DNA of 64,000 nt from Candidatus Zhuqueibacterota bacterium (GTDB lineage: Bacteria; BS750m-G25): NCBI GenBank assembly GCA_016783505.1, contig JADHWK010000003.1, positions 1-64,000 on the forward strand, written 5' to 3'. The position numbers and the translations under genes are program-made. Positions within the stretch are counted from its first letter, which is position 1. The number at the start of each line of letters is the position of its first letter. Positions 7,869 through 63,247 of this stretch are shown one piece after another. Below the pieces are notes generated by a model that did not search any database, was not told the origin of the DNA, and worked only from the letters and a program-made list of their open reading frames with translations.

Positions 7869-8266
7869 TTACGCATCTTCTGTGCCTTGTTTGCATTTTC
7901 GGAGATAAGCTATATATCCATTAATCTTCTCTATGAGAAAATAACCGTCCTTCTTGAGTTCTTCGTCATACCCTTTTTCTCCATATCCTTCGTCCAGACA
8001 AACGTTAATATCGTCAAGAATCTCTGCGACTGAACCCCTTGAAATCCTACCCCGATCCATCGGGGGATATTTTCAAGATAATGCCAACGTCCGTGACCTT
8101 CGGCTATATTGTTCGTAACAGAAACGATAGTTTTTCTCATCTGTGGGTTTAAACAATAGCGTTCTTCAGGCGGTAGTTGTTTAATGAGTTTAAAAACTTT
8201 TTGTCTAAACTTCCTCGCCAATTTATACAACTCAAAATCGTCCAACCTGTATTTTACTTTTAGCAT
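7869..8266 (-). pseudogene. Four-helix-bundle (23S-IVS type) gene, frameshifted by a palindrome
   Basis: The first part (from 8266) reads KYRLDDFELYKLARKF ... TIVSVTNNIAEGHGRWHYLENI, the opening of the four-helix-bundle family first described in 23S rRNA intervening sequences. The family normally continues QFCRISRGS; here that continuation (RISRGSVAEILDDINVC ... YLRKCKQG) lies in another frame ending at 7869. The break coincides with a perfect 16-bp palindrome at 8050-8065 (CCCCGATC/CATCGGGG). It stands where about 9 bp are expected, so the net gain of about 8 bp shifts the frame. No intact product can be made. The family is usually of unknown function. Confidence 0.85.
8050..8065. repeat. 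Palindrome inserted in a coding frame
   Basis: This perfect 16-bp palindrome, CCCCGATC followed by CATCGGGG, marks the frameshift point of the four-helix-bundle gene. It resembles the dispersed TCCCGAAnnTTCGGGA family (family A) found across the window. Confidence 0.75.
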
Positions 8267-8315: not shown

Positions 8316-11096
8316 TCACTTTTCTACTTGTTCCCCTCCCATCGGAATACTCACCCTCACCGTCGTTCCTTTACCTTTCCGACCGGTAATTTCCACATCT
8401 CCGCCAAAAACATATGCACGTTCTTTCATACCTATCATACCAAAAGAATCCCGGCTTTTTAATTTTTCCTGGGGAATGCCTATACCATTATCTGATATTT
8501 CAAGCAAAAGTTTACCGTCTGTTTTACTTATGTTAATTATAACTTTTGTTGCCTTTGCATGTCGGGTAACATTGACCAGGGCTTCCTGATATATTCGAAA
8601 TATTGCGATGGAACGATCTTTGTCTAATTTGATTTCCTTTAACTTAGTTGTTAATTCACATAATATTCCGGTGCGATCCTGGATTTCGTTCGCCTGCCAT
8701 TCCAGGGCTTCAAGGAGACCAAGGTTGTCAAGCACTTCCGGTCTTAATTCTGTAATTAATTCTCTGATCCTTTTAACGGTTACTCCAATAATTTCCTGCA
8801 TCGCATCAATTTCCCCCAAAAGAACTTGTAAATCTATTGATTCTTTTTTTTCTTTAATATCACGGGACATCAACGATAAATTCATTTTCAATGCTGTTAA
8901 GACCTGCCCCAACTCATCATGGATTTCTCTGGCTATGTATTTTCTTTCTTCTTCTCTCACATATTGAATGTGTGCGGAAAGATCTCGTATTTGAGCAAAT
9001 GACATTTTTAAATCTTCTTCAGCCAGCTTGCGTCCGGTGATGTCCCTGGTTACGCCCATAAATCCTATCAGTTCTCCTTCCTTCCCTTTCATCATGGATA
9101 CGCTCATCTCGACAGGAACTTTACTACCGTCCTTAATGAGAACATGATACTCTCGATCTTTGACGTATCCCTTTTCAATCACTTCTTCCATAGCGGCAAT
9201 AGCTTTTTCTCGATCTTCAGGAGCGATAAGATCAAAGGAGCTTTTTCCAATCAAGTCTGCTTTTTCATCCGTACCGTACATTTTCAGGGTTGCTTCGTTT
9301 ACATCTATGATCTTTCCTTCCAAATCACTGATTACAATACTATCTGTAGACATCTTTACAGCATTAGATAGACATATTAATTCCTCATCCGCCCGCTTGC
9401 GCTCAGTGATGTCGCGGAATATCTCTAACTTTGAGATGCTGCCATCGGGGTTTTTCAAGGGCGTGTCAATGAGGTCGTATGTCTTCTGGTTCTTAAAGGA
9501 ATACCATTCCCAACGGACAGTTTTTCCTGCAAAGACATCCTGATTCTTGCACCACGGGCAGACATCTTTTCGGTCATGAAAATATTCATAACACTTGTGC
9601 CTCTCAAATGGACCAAAGTCTTTCTTGAGCACGGGATTTACGTATTGGATATCATATTGTTGATTGACGATGTAGACCCCGTCCTCCATAGCTTCTAGAA
9701 TGTTGATAAAATTGTCGCGCTCCAGGCGCAGCGCCTCCTCCGCCTGCTTGCGCTCGGTGATGTCGCGTGCCATACCCAGACCTATATAGTGGTCAACACC
9801 CCGTTCCAGAGGAATGCCGAACGTCTCAACCCAGATTGTTTCCCCAGATTTGGTGATGAGGCGAAGTTCAACAGGATGCTCCATAACGCCTTTGGCCCAG
9901 GCATCTGCCATGCCTTTGAATACCTTTGGAATGTCCTCCGGATTAAGCATGTCTTGCATCGAGACCTTTCCAAGATCATCCCGAGTATATCCTAGCCGCT
10001 CCAGAGCGTAATCGTTGGCGTCAAGGAAGAGCCCTTGCTCATTATGTATGTAGACCATCTGAAGTCGGTTATCAAAGATCGCCTTGTACCGTCTCTCAGC
10101 CTCTTTTACTGCTTCCTCTGCCCGCTTGCGCTCGGTGATGTCACGTACCACGGCGAGAATTGCAGGTTCCCCCTGATATTCAATCCTAAGGGCATTGACC
10201 TCTACGGGAATTAACTTTCCATCCTTGCAGCTATGTAGCGACTCAACTATGGTGGGCTCTCCAGCCCATATCCTCTCTTGGTTATCCTTCATCAGTTGGT
10301 GGAAATCTGGATGTACAAGATCGGCAGGCCTCAAGCTGAAAAATTCTTCACTACTATAACCCAGACGCTGTAATGTAACTTCATTACAATCCACGAACCT
10401 TCCTTGGGAGTTTAAGACCATCACTGAGTCGTTAATGCCCTCAAAGAGCTGCCTATAGCGCCGCTCCGATTCCCGCAGCTCCTCCTCCGCCTTCTTGCGC
10501 TCGGTGATGTCCTGCAATATACCCACTAAGCGAACAGCTTTGCCATATTCTTTCTCTGTAATGCTGATGGAAGCAAGCGTAACATAACTGCCATCTTTCT
10601 TCCTAAATCGGTACTCGGCCATAGCACGATCTAACGTCTCAATAGCCTCTTGCAGAATTGATAGAACCTTATCTCTATCCTCAGGGTGTATTCTTTCTGC
10701 CCAGTCCTCAATATCAACTTTTGCGAATTCTTTCGGTGTATATCCAGTAATCTCTTTAATGGCTCCACCCCATGTGATTTTACCAGTGGCAATATCGTAA
10801 CTAAATGTAAGTGCTCTTGCTGCTTCAATTGCAGCTGATGCTTGTTTTTCACTTTTATGGAGCGCCTCCTCCGCCTTCTTGCGCTCGGTGATGAGCCTTG
10901 ATACGACGATGCCAAATATTAGGAAACATGCAATCATGACTAATCGTATATAGAGTTCATGATTAGGCACATCAGTAATCAGCAATCCCAACAATGTCCC
11001 TTCATAGAAAATGAGGTAGTCCAAAACAGCATCAACTACCCAAACTAACAGCCCTAACATAACCGAAACAGCAATGACTTTGTGTTTAGTTTTCAT
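8316..11096 (-). CDS. Multi-PAS sensor histidine kinase (HisKA_3)
   Basis: This 926-residue kinase has two N-terminal membrane helices (~8-30 and ~48-68), then five PAS/PAC modules, each ending in a DITERK-type linker (~85-200, 205-325, 330-450, 455-565, 570-700). It ends in a HisKA_3 dimerisation/phosphoacceptor helix (EEERKYIAREIHDELGQVLTALK) and HATPase_c (LVNVTRHAKATKV, DNGIGI, FGMIGMKERA). The fourth PAS has a Cys cluster (KCYEYFHDRKDVCPWC) that could bind a metal or sense redox. HisKA_3 kinases pair with NarL-type regulators, and one is encoded at 7074-7706. The DNA for the PAS linkers is itself repeated (six copies of a ~20-bp motif near CTTGCGCTCGGTGATG), so gains or losses of PAS modules by recombination are likely. 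The ATG overlaps the stop of the upstream small ORF (ATGA). Confidence 0.93.
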   Translation of the reverse strand: MKTKHKVIAVSVMLGLLVWVVDAVLDYLIFYEGTLLGLLITDVPNHELYIRLVMIACFLIFGIVVSRLITERKKAEEALHKSEKQASAAIEAARALTFSYDIATGKITWGGAIKEITGYTPKEFAKVDIEDWAERIHPEDRDKVLSILQEAIETLDRAMAEYRFRKKDGSYVTLASISITEKEYGKAVRLVGILQDITERKKAEEELRESERRYRQLFEGINDSVMVLNSQGRFVDCNEVTLQRLGYSSEEFFSLRPADLVHPDFHQLMKDNQERIWAGEPTIVESLHSCKDGKLIPVEVNALRIEYQGEPAILAVVRDITERKRAEEAVKEAERRYKAIFDNRLQMVYIHNEQGLFLDANDYALERLGYTRDDLGKVSMQDMLNPEDIPKVFKGMADAWAKGVMEHPVELRLITKSGETIWVETFGIPLERGVDHYIGLGMARDITERKQAEEALRLERDNFINILEAMEDGVYIVNQQYDIQYVNPVLKKDFGPFERHKCYEYFHDRKDVCPWCKNQDVFAGKTVRWEWYSFKNQKTYDLIDTPLKNPDGSISKLEIFRDITERKRADEELICLSNAVKMSTDSIVISDLEGKIIDVNEATLKMYGTDEKADLIGKSSFDLIAPEDREKAIAAMEEVIEKGYVKDREYHVLIKDGSKVPVEMSVSMMKGKEGELIGFMGVTRDITGRKLAEEDLKMSFAQIRDLSAHIQYVREEERKYIAREIHDELGQVLTALKMNLSLMSRDIKEKKESIDLQVLLGEIDAMQEIIGVTVKRIRELITELRPEVLDNLGLLEALEWQANEIQDRTGILCELTTKLKEIKLDKDRSIAIFRIYQEALVNVTRHAKATKVIINISKTDGKLLLEISDNGIGIPQEKLKSRDSFGMIGMKERAYVFGGDVEITGRKGKGTTVRVSIPMGGEQVEK

Positions 11097-11936: not shown

Positions 11937-12331
11937 TCATTTACCGCGCACTATTAACCAAGGCTGCGGATTGTTTATCATAGTCACCAACTTGCCCAAA
12001 ATCCTATCGTAAATTTCGTAAAGTTCTTTCCCAATCTCTCTGCTCAAATACCCACACTTCACAGCAAACTCCAACCATACTTGGGTCTCTGCTGCCTCTG
12101 CTTCAGGGTCATTCAGCTTACTAACAAAAGCCGCCTCATATCGCCTCTTCCTCCAGGCCTCTGCAATATTTGTACACACTGATCTCGATGACTTACGAAT
12201 CTGATCGGTCAACGAATACGCTCCTCTGTGGCAAATTGTTTCGATAACTCAAAAATCCTCATCGCCACATCAAAGACCATCTGATATACTTCTAATTCAC
12301 GATGACTTTGGATAACTTTCCTCTTATCCAT
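11937..12331 (-). pseudogene. Four-helix-bundle (23S-IVS type) gene with a one-base frameshift
   Basis: Starting from the ATG at 12331, the frame reads DKRKVIQSHRELEVYQMVFDVAMRIFELSKQFATEER, then hits TGA. The rest of the family pattern (TDQIRKSSRSVCTNIAEAWRKRRYEAAFVSKLND ... ETQVWLEFAVKCGYL ... LGKLVTMINNPQPW) continues in the next frame from about 12215. One missing base near 12220-12226 accounts for the break. It is either a real mutation or a sequencing error. Together the parts give the usual ~120-residue length. The gene sits 67 bp after ftsZ on the same strand. Confidence 0.8.
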
Positions 12332-14829: not shown

Positions 14830-15133
14830 TTCCCCTCTCCAGAAAAAGATGTGTTTTTCCCGAATTTTATAGGACTTCGTAACTTTTCGTAACTATCCAG
14901 CCACTTACCAACAATATTCATCAGAGGAATTTCTAAGACATTTGGTTCGGTCAGGCGCCCGACTGATAACCGTTTTACGCAACCTACCCATTTTGTTAAA
15001 GTCAATTCTTATCCCGAATATTCGGGACGAGACGTTAAAATAATTCTTTTGATACCATTTCTGATAGGGGTTTAAAACTTATATCCACTAGGCACCGGAC
15101 TGATTTCTTCTTTGTGCCTTGGTGGCTGAAACA
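14830..15133. repeat. ftsA-ftsQ gap with family A and B palindromes
   Basis: This 304-bp gap has no gene. It holds the 20-bp family B palindrome TCGGTCAGGCGCCCGACTGA at 14947-14966, a perfect family A palindrome at 15012-15027 (TCCCGAATATTCGGGA), a half family B near 15087, and a CTTTGTGCCTTGGTGGCT fragment abutting the ftsQ stop. Confidence 0.8.
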
Positions 15134-17039: not shown

Positions 17040-17329
17040 AAACTCAAATTGAAAACTAAGCTTTGGCAAAATGATCAAAATTTATAAATCCCCTAGCTCC
17101 AAATCCCATCCCAAAGATTCGGGACAAACAAATCGGTCAGGCGCCCAACTGATCCTAAATCTAAATTACTAAATATCCAAAACCAATTGCGTTTTGGTCC
17201 TTGGTCCCGAGTATTCGGGATTGAACATTGTTTGCCTGCCCGGCCAGGGGAATTTGGTGCTTGGAATTTGGTCCCAAGTATTCGGGATTATTGCTCAGCA
17301 TTTTAAATTTACCTAAGTTTAGTGAGAAC
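17040..17329. repeat. murG-murB gap with repeated palindromes
   Basis: This gap, where murC usually lies, contains three family A palindromes (17108-17125, 17204-17221, 17271-17288) and one family B element (17133-17152: TCGGTCAGGCGCCCAACTGA). The pieces are joined by AATTTGG-type sequence similar to 18540-18660 and 27540-27670, so these gaps share a composite repeat. No coding frame is supported. Confidence 0.75.
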
Positions 17330-27236: not shown

Positions 27237-27754
27237 AAAGGGGTCAAAACCCCGGTTCCCCCCTTTTTTGGGGAGGAACATTTAAAAGCGACTGATCTTC
27301 CGGGAAGTTAGGTCATCTAATCTTTCCCCCTGCCCGGATTATAGTGAAGCTTCGCCTCCCTGGGCCATGCGGCGTCTAGCCCCGGGTAGGCAAACCGATA
27401 AGACAAGAATTAAGAAAATCCGAAATCCGAATATCGAAATCCGAAACATCCCGAATAATCGGGACAAATATCAAATGCTCAAAAAGTTTTTCACTTATAC
27501 GCAATATGGCTCTCGCCTTTTTAGCGAACGAAAGAGGTGCGATATTCCAAATCATGTTGTTTAGGATTTTGAATTTTAGTCATTGGTCAGGCGCCCAACT
27601 GATTTGTATTTGTTTCGAGCTTCGTCCCGAAGGTTCGGGATCGTGCTTCCGTCAGGCGCCGGACTGATCGGATTATTTAAGGTATTTTGTTCTGCAATAA
27701 AGTTGCATCGCTGACTAACCACTAAAATTCGGGAAAACTCTATCTTCTCCCCAT
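27237..27754. repeat. Repeat-rich gap between rmlA-like gene and mraZ
   Basis: No gene is visible. It holds family A palindromes at 27448-27465 and 27624-27641 and family B elements at 27583-27602 and 27651-27668. Their order (B, A, B joined by TTTGTATTTGTTTCG) is similar to the block at 18583-18650. Confidence 0.7.
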
Positions 27755-43710: not shown

Positions 43711-43974
43711 ATAATTTCTGTTTTACTTTTTAGTCAGCTAAAAACGAATGGGACAAATTAACAGATTCTATCTAAAAAACTGTAACTGTTTGGCCATCTG
43801 AAGTTAAAAGACGGCAGAGGGGCTGCGGAGCAGAGGGGAAAAATCCCTTTTTACTCTTCACTCTTGCTCCTCTGCTCCCCTGCACCCTTGCCCTTCCATT
43901 TTGATCAGTCGGGCGCCTGACCGATACTTTCCCATTCGTTACTAACTTCACATAACTAAACTGGTATAAAGAAG
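43711..43974. repeat. Gap with family B palindrome
   Basis: It contains GCAGAGGGGC and its inverted CTCTGCTCCCCTGC (43810-43890), and the family B palindrome TCAGTCGGGCGCCTGACCGA at 43905-43924. No gene is present. Confidence 0.65.
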
Positions 43975-46415: not shown

Positions 46416-46691
46416 AACACCACCCTAATTATAAATCCGAAATTCGAATACCTGCCCGCCACCCACAGGGTTGGACAGACGGGTCGAAATCTCTCAGGGC
46501 CGTTGGCTCTACGAGCCAGAGACCGAAACAAACTCAAATCCCAACTGTTCGGGACAATATCAAAACTCAAGAAATAGGGAATATCATTTTGCCAACCGGA
46601 GTTACCCCGAAGCTTCGGGGTAACTCCAGTTATTGTTTTTATTTTGTTTTAAATTTTGGTCCTCGGTCAGGCGCCGGACTGATCGGATTTT
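46416..46691. repeat. Kinase-regulator gap with palindromes
   Basis: It contains a family-C-like segment (~46450-46485), a perfect 30-bp palindrome centred on AAGCTT (46598-46627; arms GGAGTTACCCCG), and a family B element at 46663-46682. No gene is present. Confidence 0.75.
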
Positions 46692-50494: not shown

Positions 50495-50553
50495 GCTCCG
50501 GAGGAGGGACTCGAACCCCCATCCCGAACCTTCGGGATAACAGCCACCCGCTT
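50495..50553 (-). repeat. tRNA-Asn-derived remnant R2
   Basis: GCTCCGGAGGAGGGACTCGA and ACCCCC match the 3' half of the tRNA gene. A family A palindrome (50521-50538) replaces the segment covering the anticodon-stem 3' strand and variable loop, and AACAGCCACCCGCT then resumes the match. It ends at the stop codon of the GIY-YIG gene. Confidence 0.8.
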
Positions 50554-50833
50554 AAGTCTGAATATGATACTCTCCGGAAATCAACTTCTTAATGAACCCC
50601 TTACTCTTCTGGAATTTTACAAACCGTTCCGCCCTTTGAGCAGAAATACGATCAGAAAATTCCAAAGTGAAAATCAGTTTCCAAGGGCGTCCTCGCTTAG
50701 TCCATCCCTTTTGACTGGTATTATGATATAAAAGTCTCTCTTCCGGGTCACGAGATATACCAGTGTAGTATTTTTCCAGTTTATCAGAATAAAGAATGTA
50801 TAAATAACAGGGATCTCGATTAGAGTATTGCAT
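50552..50833 (-). CDS. GIY-YIG nuclease-domain protein
   Basis: This 93-residue protein of the YhbQ/UvrC-N type has the two hallmark motifs in YLYILYSDKLEKYYTGIS, then RLLYHNT, and GWTKRGRPWKLIF with the conserved Arg, ending in LKFxK-like KFQKSKGF. Similar small proteins are common in candidate phyla and have unclear roles, possibly in DNA repair. It sits 10 bp downstream of the tRNA-Asn gene, and its stop lies at the edge of remnant R2, so it is embedded in the tRNA-repeat cluster. Whether it takes part in repeat movement is unknown. Confidence 0.92.
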   Translation of the reverse strand: MQYSNRDPCYLYILYSDKLEKYYTGISRDPEERLLYHNTSQKGWTKRGRPWKLIFTLEFSDRISAQRAERFVKFQKSKGFIKKLISGEYHIQT

Positions 50834-50843
50834 AAATTAAAAG

Positions 50844-50915
50844 CTCCGGAGGAGGGACTTGAACCCCCAACCTAGTGGTTAACAGCCACCCGCTCTCCCA
50901 TTGAGCTACTCCGGA
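50844..50915 (-). tRNA. tRNA-Asn (anticodon GTT)
   Basis: All arms fold: acceptor TCCGGAG/CTCCGGA, D-stem GCTC/GAGC, anticodon stem GGTGG/CCACT around CTGTTAA (anticodon GTT), and T-arm GGGGG-TTCAAGT-CCCTC, with discriminator G. CCA is not encoded. It is 72 nt long and apparently functional. It is the parent of the four nearby remnants. Confidence 0.95.
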
Positions 50916-50984: not shown

Positions 50985-51055
50985 TGGACTCGAACCCCCA
51001 TCCCGAATCTTCGGGATAACAGCCACCCGTCCCGATCCTTCGGGACTACTCCGGA
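50985..51055 (-). repeat. tRNA-Asn-derived remnant R3 with two palindromes
   Basis: GGACTCGAACCCCC, AACAGCCACCCG and CTACTCCGGA match the tRNA gene, but two arms are replaced by palindromes. ATCCCGAATCTTCGGGAT (51000-51017) takes the place of the anticodon 3' strand and variable loop. GTCCCGATCCTTCGGGAC (51029-51046) takes the place of the D-arm. Confidence 0.85.
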
Positions 51056-51652: not shown

Positions 51653-51763
51653 GGGGAGGAATCCGTCAAGAGCCGGACTCACACTTCGTTCTAGCTCGAA
51701 CCCCCATCCCGAACCTTCGGGATAACAGTCACCCGTCCCGATCCTTCGGGACTACTCCGGAAT
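51653..51763 (-). repeat. tRNA-Asn-derived remnant R4 with two palindromes and the 35-bp element
   Basis: GAGGAATCCGTCAAGAGCCG begins a copy of the ~35-bp element also found in R1. CGAACCCCC, the palindrome ATCCCGAACCTTCGGGAT (51706-51723), AACAGTCACCC, the second palindrome (51735-51752) and CTACTCCGG then follow as in R3. It abuts the fumarase gene and forms the right edge of the island. Confidence 0.85.
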
Positions 51764-56719: not shown

Positions 56720-57696
56720 CAGCAGTCCACTTTCTTAGCTATAGGAATATTGCAATTTCTAAATAGATGTAGCCGTACCCTTTATGGGTGCGAAGTTACA
56801 AATTCACTCAGGCGCCTGGGCCTGTGGCAGAACTATCGCGATTGATAATTTAGGGGTTATGTTTAGAACCGCTCTAAAGAGCGGTTCTGGTTAAATACTT
56901 GTTAAAGAAAGCCTTAACCAGAACTTTATCCCGATGCTTCGGGATAGGTTTTGGCCCTTGCCGAGCAGGCAAGATCTTCAGACGGAAAATCAATGATCTC
57001 TAAGTTGTGCCACAGATCCGCCTGACTGACCGCAGGTATAAAGCCTGCGACTACATCCATTATGATAAAAAATGAAGAAACAAGAATTTTGAACACTTAG
57101 GTTTACTCAGAATTTAGTTTTTTAAACTTAGCAATTTTCAATGCTCGTCGGGGAAGTTGTCTTCCCCGACAAAACCGTTGCCATAGATTTCCGATGGGTT
57201 TTGGAGTGCATCCCGAACCTTCGGGATGCATACAATCGGATTTTGAGCTCTGCTCCGATGTTGTCATTCTGACCCCGATTTATCGGGGTGAAGGGTCTCA
57301 GAGATTCTCAGAATGACAGTGCCGAAGGGCCAGAATAATACTCCCATTGGCTCGTTTTGGAGTGCAACCTGTCAGTGACCCGTTTTGGGATCGGTCAGGA
57401 AAGCTTGCTTTTGCCAGTAAAAATTCCAAATAGTGACCTAACCCGTTACGGGCTTCCAAAACCAACCTAAGCTTCGAAAAATTTTATACTATTCCACAGA
57501 CACCGTTACAAACGGTGTCTGATCAATTGCGCTGGAATAATGGATGAATGAATAGATAAATGGATAAACGGATAGATGGATAAACAATTATCCAATTATC
57601 CAACTATCCAATCCTCTCTTCCAACCATCCAACCTTCCATCATTCCCTACGGGCTGTAGGCCATTATTCCATTGCTCCATTACTCCATTCGGAACA
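56720..57696. repeat. Large repeat nest between the radical SAM and RNase G genes
   Basis: This 977-bp non-coding stretch holds many perfect hairpins: AGAACCGCTC/GAGCGGTTCT (~56856-56879), ATCCCGATGCTTCGGGAT (56928-56945), GTCGGGGAAG/CTTCCCCGAC (~57148-57171), TGCATCCCGA/TCGGGATGCA (57207-57230), CCCCGATTTATCGGGG (57273-57288) inside TGTCATTCTGA/TCAGAATGACA, and CAGACACCGTT/AACGGTGTCTG (~57497-57521). It ends in GGATA-type and TTCCA-type tandem units (57540-57690). Positions 57140-57437 form the left copy of the direct repeat listed separately. Confidence 0.75.
57140..57437. repeat. Long direct repeat, left copy
   Basis: This ~300-bp stretch begins AATGCTCGTCGG and ends TTCCAAATAGTGAC. It matches 60379-60622 along most of its length, with a ~45-bp segment and part of the TGTCATTCTGA hairpin absent from the right copy. 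Shared blocks include CTTCCCCGACAAAA, CATCCCGAACCTTCG, CAGAATAATACT and GCTTTTGCCAGTA. Confidence 0.8.
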
Positions 57697-62970: not shown

Positions 62971-63247
62971 CTTCAGCCGCTAAGTTTTAATGTAACAGTT
63001 CACCTATTCCTTTCTAATCTTTTAGCGACAAGATTCACAAAATTTAAAGTAAATCAGAATATCAGTAAATCAGTAGGGAGGGAATCAGATTACCAGAGTA
63101 TCAGGTTTTATCCTGTCCCAAGATCGTTCCGAATGTTCTAATCTACTGATATTCGTCCCACTGATATCCTAATTGCCTGATATACTCGTCCCGAAACATC
63201 TGGATGTTTACAATTCCTCAAGCATAGAAGTTTATGTGGATGAACTG
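62971..63247. repeat. Gap with ACTGATAT-type repeats
   Basis: It contains CAGTAAATCAGTAGG, ACTGATATTCGTCCCACTGA and TATCCTAATTGCCTGATATA, a longer version of the repeat at 30118-30170. No gene is visible. Confidence 0.6.

Follow-up and report, generated by a model that had tools for sequence, protein, structure and literature searches.

A dispersed palindrome in a frameshifted four-helix-bundle gene and its possible spread by replacement of hairpin tips

Short palindromic repeats are common in bacteria, and how the smallest of them multiply is unclear. A 64,000-nt stretch of DNA from Candidatus Zhuqueibacterota bacterium BS750m-G25 (contig JADHWK010000003.1, positions 1 to 64,000; hereafter the window) raises this question in a coding context. 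Here a gene of the four-helix-bundle family, with a response regulator gene on one side and a histidine kinase gene on the other, loses its reading frame exactly where a short palindrome stands. Did the palindrome enter beside the coding bases or in place of them, and is the gene one case of a wider process?

The palindrome and the broken four-helix-bundle gene

The preliminary description gave the coordinates and letters of this palindrome (CCCCGATCCATCGGGG) correctly (Table 1) but called it perfect: its arms, CCCCGAT and ATCGGGG, span 7 bp, the central CC is unpaired and 14 of the 16 bases pair. On the minus strand, 17 bases separate codon ATC (8066–8068) from codon AGG (8046–8048), where homologues code Q/R-F-C with 9 bases, much as the roughly 9 bp of a QFCRI region had been expected there. 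The exchange can also be read as 16 bases for 8 (CAATTTTG or CAGTTCTG in homologues). Seventeen bases for nine is a net gain of 8, and the frame therefore shifts. The first half of the gene matches the PF05635 profile above its gathering score (50.1 bits against a cut-off of 33.8, residues 10–65 of a 111-aa open reading frame (ORF)); the second half alone matched no Pfam model but can be aligned to the homologues. Another four-helix-bundle gene in the window (11937–12212, minus strand; PF05635, 6.5e-18) covers profile positions 31–104 of 106, its first part missing.

Searching the genome contigs with both gene halves, with X at the break, returned eight loci, among them L024 (titled Candidatus Latescibacterota), which is 78% identical to the window gene, and L025, which is 73% identical. 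In five close homologues (L024, L025, L026, L028 and L029), there is no palindrome, the frame is open through the break and Q/R-F-C is coded there. Palindrome-free homologues with an intact frame thus exist, the frameshift at the palindrome is real, and coding bases were replaced rather than merely added to, which supports the earlier proposal that the palindrome overwrote coding sequence. Among the genes compared, no orthologue carries the same palindrome with an intact frame. The remaining three loci are all damaged: L027 carries 24 inserted bases that include another palindrome (CCCGCATAGCGGG), with a stop a few codons downstream; L030 (an Armatimonadetes assembly; L030:3001–3516) has a 147-base hairpin-like inverted-repeat insert just upstream, near the same codons, plus a stop; and L031 has one stop and one frameshift.

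The only other palindrome copy at this site lies in the genome's own paralogue on contig C38 (L003; C38:5720–6030), which is also frameshifted. There, TCCCGAATAATCGGGA, a different member of the same family, stands at the same alignment position in a distant paralogue, again as a 17-for-9 exchange with a +8 shift. This copy is clearly a pseudogene, and it also carries two MITE-like inserts, each about 110 bp long, whose ends read CCCTGTTAAATA..TATTTAACAGGG (L003:1256–1755). In a tree of 13 rows, the window gene groups with the five palindrome-free homologues (support 99/98), apart from the C38 copy. A shared origin of the two palindromes was considered and set aside, an AU test on the same rows having rejected a clade of the window and C38 genes (p-AU 0.00693). 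Since this clade is rejected and the same codon is hit in both genes, two independent events are the simplest reading. It was noticed post hoc that 4 of the 10 genes compared (window, C38 and the eight loci) have palindromic inserts within about eight codons.

Between the window gene and L024, dN is 0.10 upstream of the break and 0.12 downstream (54 of 59 residues compared), and dS was not computable, which is the program's sign of saturation. Low dN on both sides with saturated dS makes it probable that selection acted on the gene until a short time ago; recent breakage is the best explanation, and the cell can probably do without the target gene.

Table 1. Coordinates in the window of the broken gene, its palindrome and further sites
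Feature	Position	Strand	Remark
Four-helix-bundle gene (23S_rRNA_IVP, PF05635), first half, codons 1–67	8066..8266	-	PF05635 E 3.7e-13
Same gene, second half, out of frame, open to stop (RISRGSVAEILDDINV...TEDA)	7869..8048	-	59 residues; aligns to homologues
Palindrome CCCCGAT-CC-ATCGGGG	8050..8065		member of the YCCCGA-N4-TCGGGR family; ~8 coding bases replaced
17 bases in place of 9 coding Q/R-F-C in homologues	8049..8065	-	alignment with L024–L029
Outer arm CTTGAAA, other side of the 7-bp stem	8038..8044		
Outer arm TTTCAAG (coding strand CTTGAAA)	8071..8077		pairs with 8038–8044
Palindrome in partial tRNA-Asn copy, in place of ACCTAGTGGT (3' anticodon strand plus variable loop)	50521..50538		
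Intact tRNA-Asn	50843..50915	-	palindrome-free comparison for the filled tRNA-Asn-like copies
Two palindromes in tRNA-Asn-like copy, one at anticodon/variable region, the other in place of D-arm hairpin	51000..51046		
Same palindrome pair in further tRNA-Asn-like copy	51706..51752		
TCCCGATGCTTCGGGA on REP-like stem tip	56929..56944		empty counterpart in same genome: TCTTTAGA (L100 near 7404)
Empty counterpart TAAATCAG, approximate place	63057..63075	+	filled site at L108:14147

Filled and empty copies of the palindrome family

The palindrome belongs to a family with the consensus YCCCGA-N4-TCGGGR, extended to a module R-Y-CCCGA-N4-TCGGG-R-Y of 16–18 bp. Its core, CCCGANNNNTCGGG, occurs 293 times in the 2.5-Mb source genome (G000) against once for a reversed-pattern control, and the window has 18 copies where shuffles predict 0.12; chance is therefore excluded for the family. 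The spacer is fixed at 4 bases and free in sequence, whereas the arms are conserved over 5–6 bp: in 1,033,187 sampled bases, 150 cores have spacing 4, against at most 11 for each alternative spacing between 0 and 24, and in 700,866 bases CCCGA leads the 5-bp arms with spacing 4 (104, against 25 for the next). Of 70 sites, 67 also have the outer base pair. Inverted repetition continues into the flanks beyond 16 bp across 60 non-redundant sites, to a degree reached by none of 200 permutations. Palindromes of this kind had been described as entering coding sequence rather than only accumulating between genes. The overwriting stands, yet ORFs of 100 or more codons (stop to stop), which make up 86% of the sample, contain only 16 of 70 sampled sites and leave 54 outside.

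Comparing the flanks of 149 sites with the rest of the sample gave 38 pairs: in 13 both members are filled, and in the other 25, from 20 distinct sites, the partner is empty, decayed or changed in some other way (a decayed copy in two cases, a nested copy in one). Read from aligned sequences, such filled and empty pairs within the genome show that replacement is commoner than plain insertion. The module stands in place of anticodon or D arms in copies of tRNA-Asn, tRNA-Asp and tRNA-Glu, and it also tips REP-like stems and further short inverted repeats. In the tRNA-Asn copies of the window it takes the place of ACCTAGTGGT, and two of these copies have it instead of the D arm too. In tRNA-Asp copies (L081), CGCCGGAGGTCG, whose arms are only 3 bp, is replaced next to an intact gene called by ARAGORN; the program also calls the palindrome-bearing copy at 9013–9091 a tRNA-Asp and so does not exclude it as a tRNA. 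At L108, the counterpart of TCCCGAAGTATCGGGA is an anticodon arm, CCGGCGTGAGAGGCCGG, in an intact copy read by eye as tRNA-Glu-like; this arm occupies the place of the module in the empty copy. A small GIY-YIG nuclease gene (PF01541, 5.7e-14; 50552–50833, minus strand) lies between the intact tRNA-Asn and the palindrome-bearing partial copy, and a similar-looking ORF lies at L081 8558–8815 between a tRNA-Asp-like copy and tRNA-Asp.

Outside tRNA-derived sequence, TCCCGAAGTTTCGGGA is exchanged with TCCATTTTAATGGA at L077, L103 and two further sites of that family, and GCCTCGC within CGAGCCTCG stands where the filled copy has the module. Only a functional tRNA or an open gene as the empty state makes the direction of an exchange certain; at other sites the direction is presumed. 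Because the same replacement is found at tRNA-derived and intergenic sites, the case for overwriting is stronger than was first stated; the movement of the palindrome itself we infer from comparison.

We hand-picked 17 events together with their block boundaries: the two four-helix-bundle cases, the tRNA-Asn D arm and 14 of the 20 distinct sites. In 10 of them, against 3.2 expected, the bases replaced form an inverted repeat with arms of at least 4 bp, and the summed arm length is unusual both overall (p ~0.004) and for the 13 non-tRNA events (p 0.023). Omitted from this set were the redundant sites L081:9052, L112:10663 and L115:15076, the site with a decayed partner at L129:10289, L099:6387 (whose partner consists of module arms with another palindrome nested within) and L126:2300 (out of register). 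The arms of the four-helix-bundle target are only 3 bp, two replaced stretches (CAATTAG and TAAATCAG) are not hairpins, and 3 of the 17 events look like plain insertion or its reversal. The only pair readable as insertion with a 3-bp duplication is L108:6090, and at 16 bp the unit falls outside the definition of MITEs (70–300 bp, terminal inverted repeats, target duplication). A further candidate feature, retention of target bases in the loop (AGGT in tRNA-Asn; TGGT versus AGGT in tRNA-Asp), is striking in these tRNAs but was dropped as absent from most other pairs. Among 159 pairs obtained from 1,500 intergenic control positions, the middle differs in 58, compared with 25 of 38 for the palindromes; repeats here are therefore variable in general, and variability alone is not special. 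The special feature is the inverted-repeat nature of the replaced stretch.

In a set of 59 genomes that includes the source genome and no relative of it nearer than domain level, G054, which is not closely related to it, holds 179 cores (control 5), and each other genome besides the source has at most 26. G059, of the same family as G054, holds 38 (control 0), and G196, the genome of L027, holds 48 (control 1). In 255,404 bases of G054 with 31 cores, one pair shows the same exchange, CGCTTTCGCG versus CCCGAGTACTCGGG within an ATTCC..GGAAT stem (GGATTCCCGCTTTCGCGGGAATGAC versus GGATTCCCCCGAGTACTCGGGGGAATGAC), and another has CTTCG versus the module inside a longer repeat. The same tip thus stands on different stems in unrelated bacteria.

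A possible mechanism and its rivals

We consider it probable, on balance, that the palindrome is a dispersed hairpin module of 16–18 bp that multiplies by replacing the tips of small inverted repeats already in place. To tip replacement, whatever its mechanism, we give somewhat more than an even chance; to tip replacement by template switching, about one chance in three. For the replacement that the comparisons show, we infer the following as the likeliest route. A small hairpin would be extruded as a single strand, and the nascent strand would switch template there. A few matching stem bases would let it pair with another copy of the module, presumably in trans, whose tip it would copy before returning. 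In the window gene, the module would have taken the place of the short inverted repeat over the Q-F-C codons, giving the +8 shift. Folded as single-stranded DNA, the coding strand places the module stem inside the outer 7-bp stem CTTGAAA/TTTCAAG (-10.2 kcal/mol, z -2.5). This outer stem needs Leu CTT, a codon that is Gln (CAA/CAG) in L024–L026, L028–L031, L033 and L034 and Lys in L027. Template switching at quasi-palindromes perfects inverted repeats, according to the parts of PMC7202029 and PMC8794818 that treat it, as the double change from CAA/CAG to CTT does, and this change may be the trace of a switch within the quasi-palindrome.

Several other readings account for part of these data. 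The module could be a REP-type element, mobilised as a single-stranded DNA hairpin by a RAYT-like Y1 (HUH) transposase that inserts at hairpins, with loss of the target as a by-product. The source genome does have three Y1_Tnp genes above the family cut-off, and that of C80 (L109:2162–2617, PF01797 E 1.1e-20) has REP-like stems on both sides (AGAACCG..CGGTTCT and a variant) with tip ATCCCGAAACTTCGGGAT. Across the C80 stretch (L109:1960–2780), however, the AGAACC..GGTTCT stem is constant while the tips differ from unit to unit (ATCTAAAGAT, TCACTTTTAGTG), the module being one of them; the stem rather than the module tip therefore looks like the REP of the C80 transposase, and the tip like an addition. 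The other two Y1 genes are adjoined by other palindromes, and a GTAG/CGTC tag is absent: directly outside the core, CTAC occurs once (at the four-helix-bundle site itself) and GACG never at 300 ends, and within 10 bp of 150 sites CTAC occurs 7 times and GACG 10 times, with no conserved tetranucleotide. We regard mobilisation by a transposase as unlikely. On C89 of the source genome (L062:1060–1880), another Y1 transposase gene is bracketed by a pair of near-identical repeat blocks that carry palindromes CACCACGATGAATCGTGGTG and CACCCGAAT..ATTCGGGTG.

That the dyad is instead the binding site of a dimeric protein, an operator or chromosome-organising site whose copies are kept by selection while the four-helix-bundle and tRNA cases are accidents, seems to us quite improbable. 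The fixed spacing of 4 with free sequence, the conserved 5–6-bp arms and the mostly intergenic position of the copies would suit such a site; exact hairpin replacement would be unexpected, and copies in dead tRNA-like sequences and at the same codon of two broken paralogues look mutational rather than selected. Still less probable is that the gene is unbroken and ribosomes skip the hairpin by programmed bypassing or frameshifting. The position and +8 shift common to two paralogues, the two window halves that are still open and the low dN in both fit this reading, but a recent break would also give low dN, and the C38 copy is dead because of its two further inserts. Least credible of all is an assembly or sequencing error, even in a metagenome-assembled genome that is incomplete and in several pieces (59.88% complete, 89 contigs), given that the inserted bases belong to a 293-copy family rather than forming a random indel and that an independent contig, C38, shows a like event.

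Known palindromic repeats and what tip replacement would mean

Rickettsia palindromic elements are longer than the 16-bp module. Like the module they lie within ORFs, but in the passages of PMC3733652 that concern them they are reported in-frame in apparently working genes, whereas the module breaks the frame by +8 in both paralogues. With GTAG/CGTC REPs, as portrayed in the relevant passages of that paper, the module shares short, dispersed and mostly intergenic palindromes, some genic, and a palindrome-flanked Y1 transposase; it differs in its untagged 16–18-bp core, its 4-base spacer and the replacement of the target's hairpin tip. Set against the general description of REPs (20–40 bp, high copy, mostly extragenic), the module is high in copy number and mostly outside ORFs, with a conserved unit of 16–18 bp. 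REPs inside genes and REP dimers inside target palindromes are already in print (Di Nocera et al. 2013, PMC3733652, in the sections on these elements). REPINs and RAYTs likewise link hairpin-forming repeats to Y1 transposases, but REPINs, in the account given in parts of PMC3116915, are doublets of REPs (in a GI doublet, the 16-mers start 71 bp apart), and the module is a single short hairpin. Quasi-palindrome template switching, in the relevant parts of PMC7202029 and PMC8794818, similarly changes imperfect inverted repeats and perfects their arms, as at the CTT codon; that process copies one arm from the other, whereas the module is an identical foreign tip on unrelated stems. In the open-licence literature, we found no description of CCCCGATCCATCGGGG, of its family or of hairpin-tip replacement.

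A second palindrome family, ATCGGTCAGGCGCCNNACTGAT, occurs in the window at 14946–14967, 17132–17153, 27582–27603, 27647–27668, 43904–43925 and 46662–46683, and near position 14854 of L080 a similar palindrome is nested within CCCGA..TCGGG arms.

Filled and empty copies in one genome, including tRNA copies of known ancestral state, indicate that hairpins are replaced rather than joined by an insertion beside them. A bolder version, which we hold as possible but doubtful, is an 'infectious hairpin tip', a selfish sequence without ends of its own: a polymerase at any small hairpin would switch to the module and bring its tip back. If this were true, existing inverted repeats such as tRNA arms, REP stems and short genic repeats would be converted to the same tip, which would amount to hairpin gene conversion in trans, operating in two or more unrelated lineages of bacteria. 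Tip replacement would offer a testable mode of spread for such repeats, and one that may explain the damage they do to coding and tRNA sequences.
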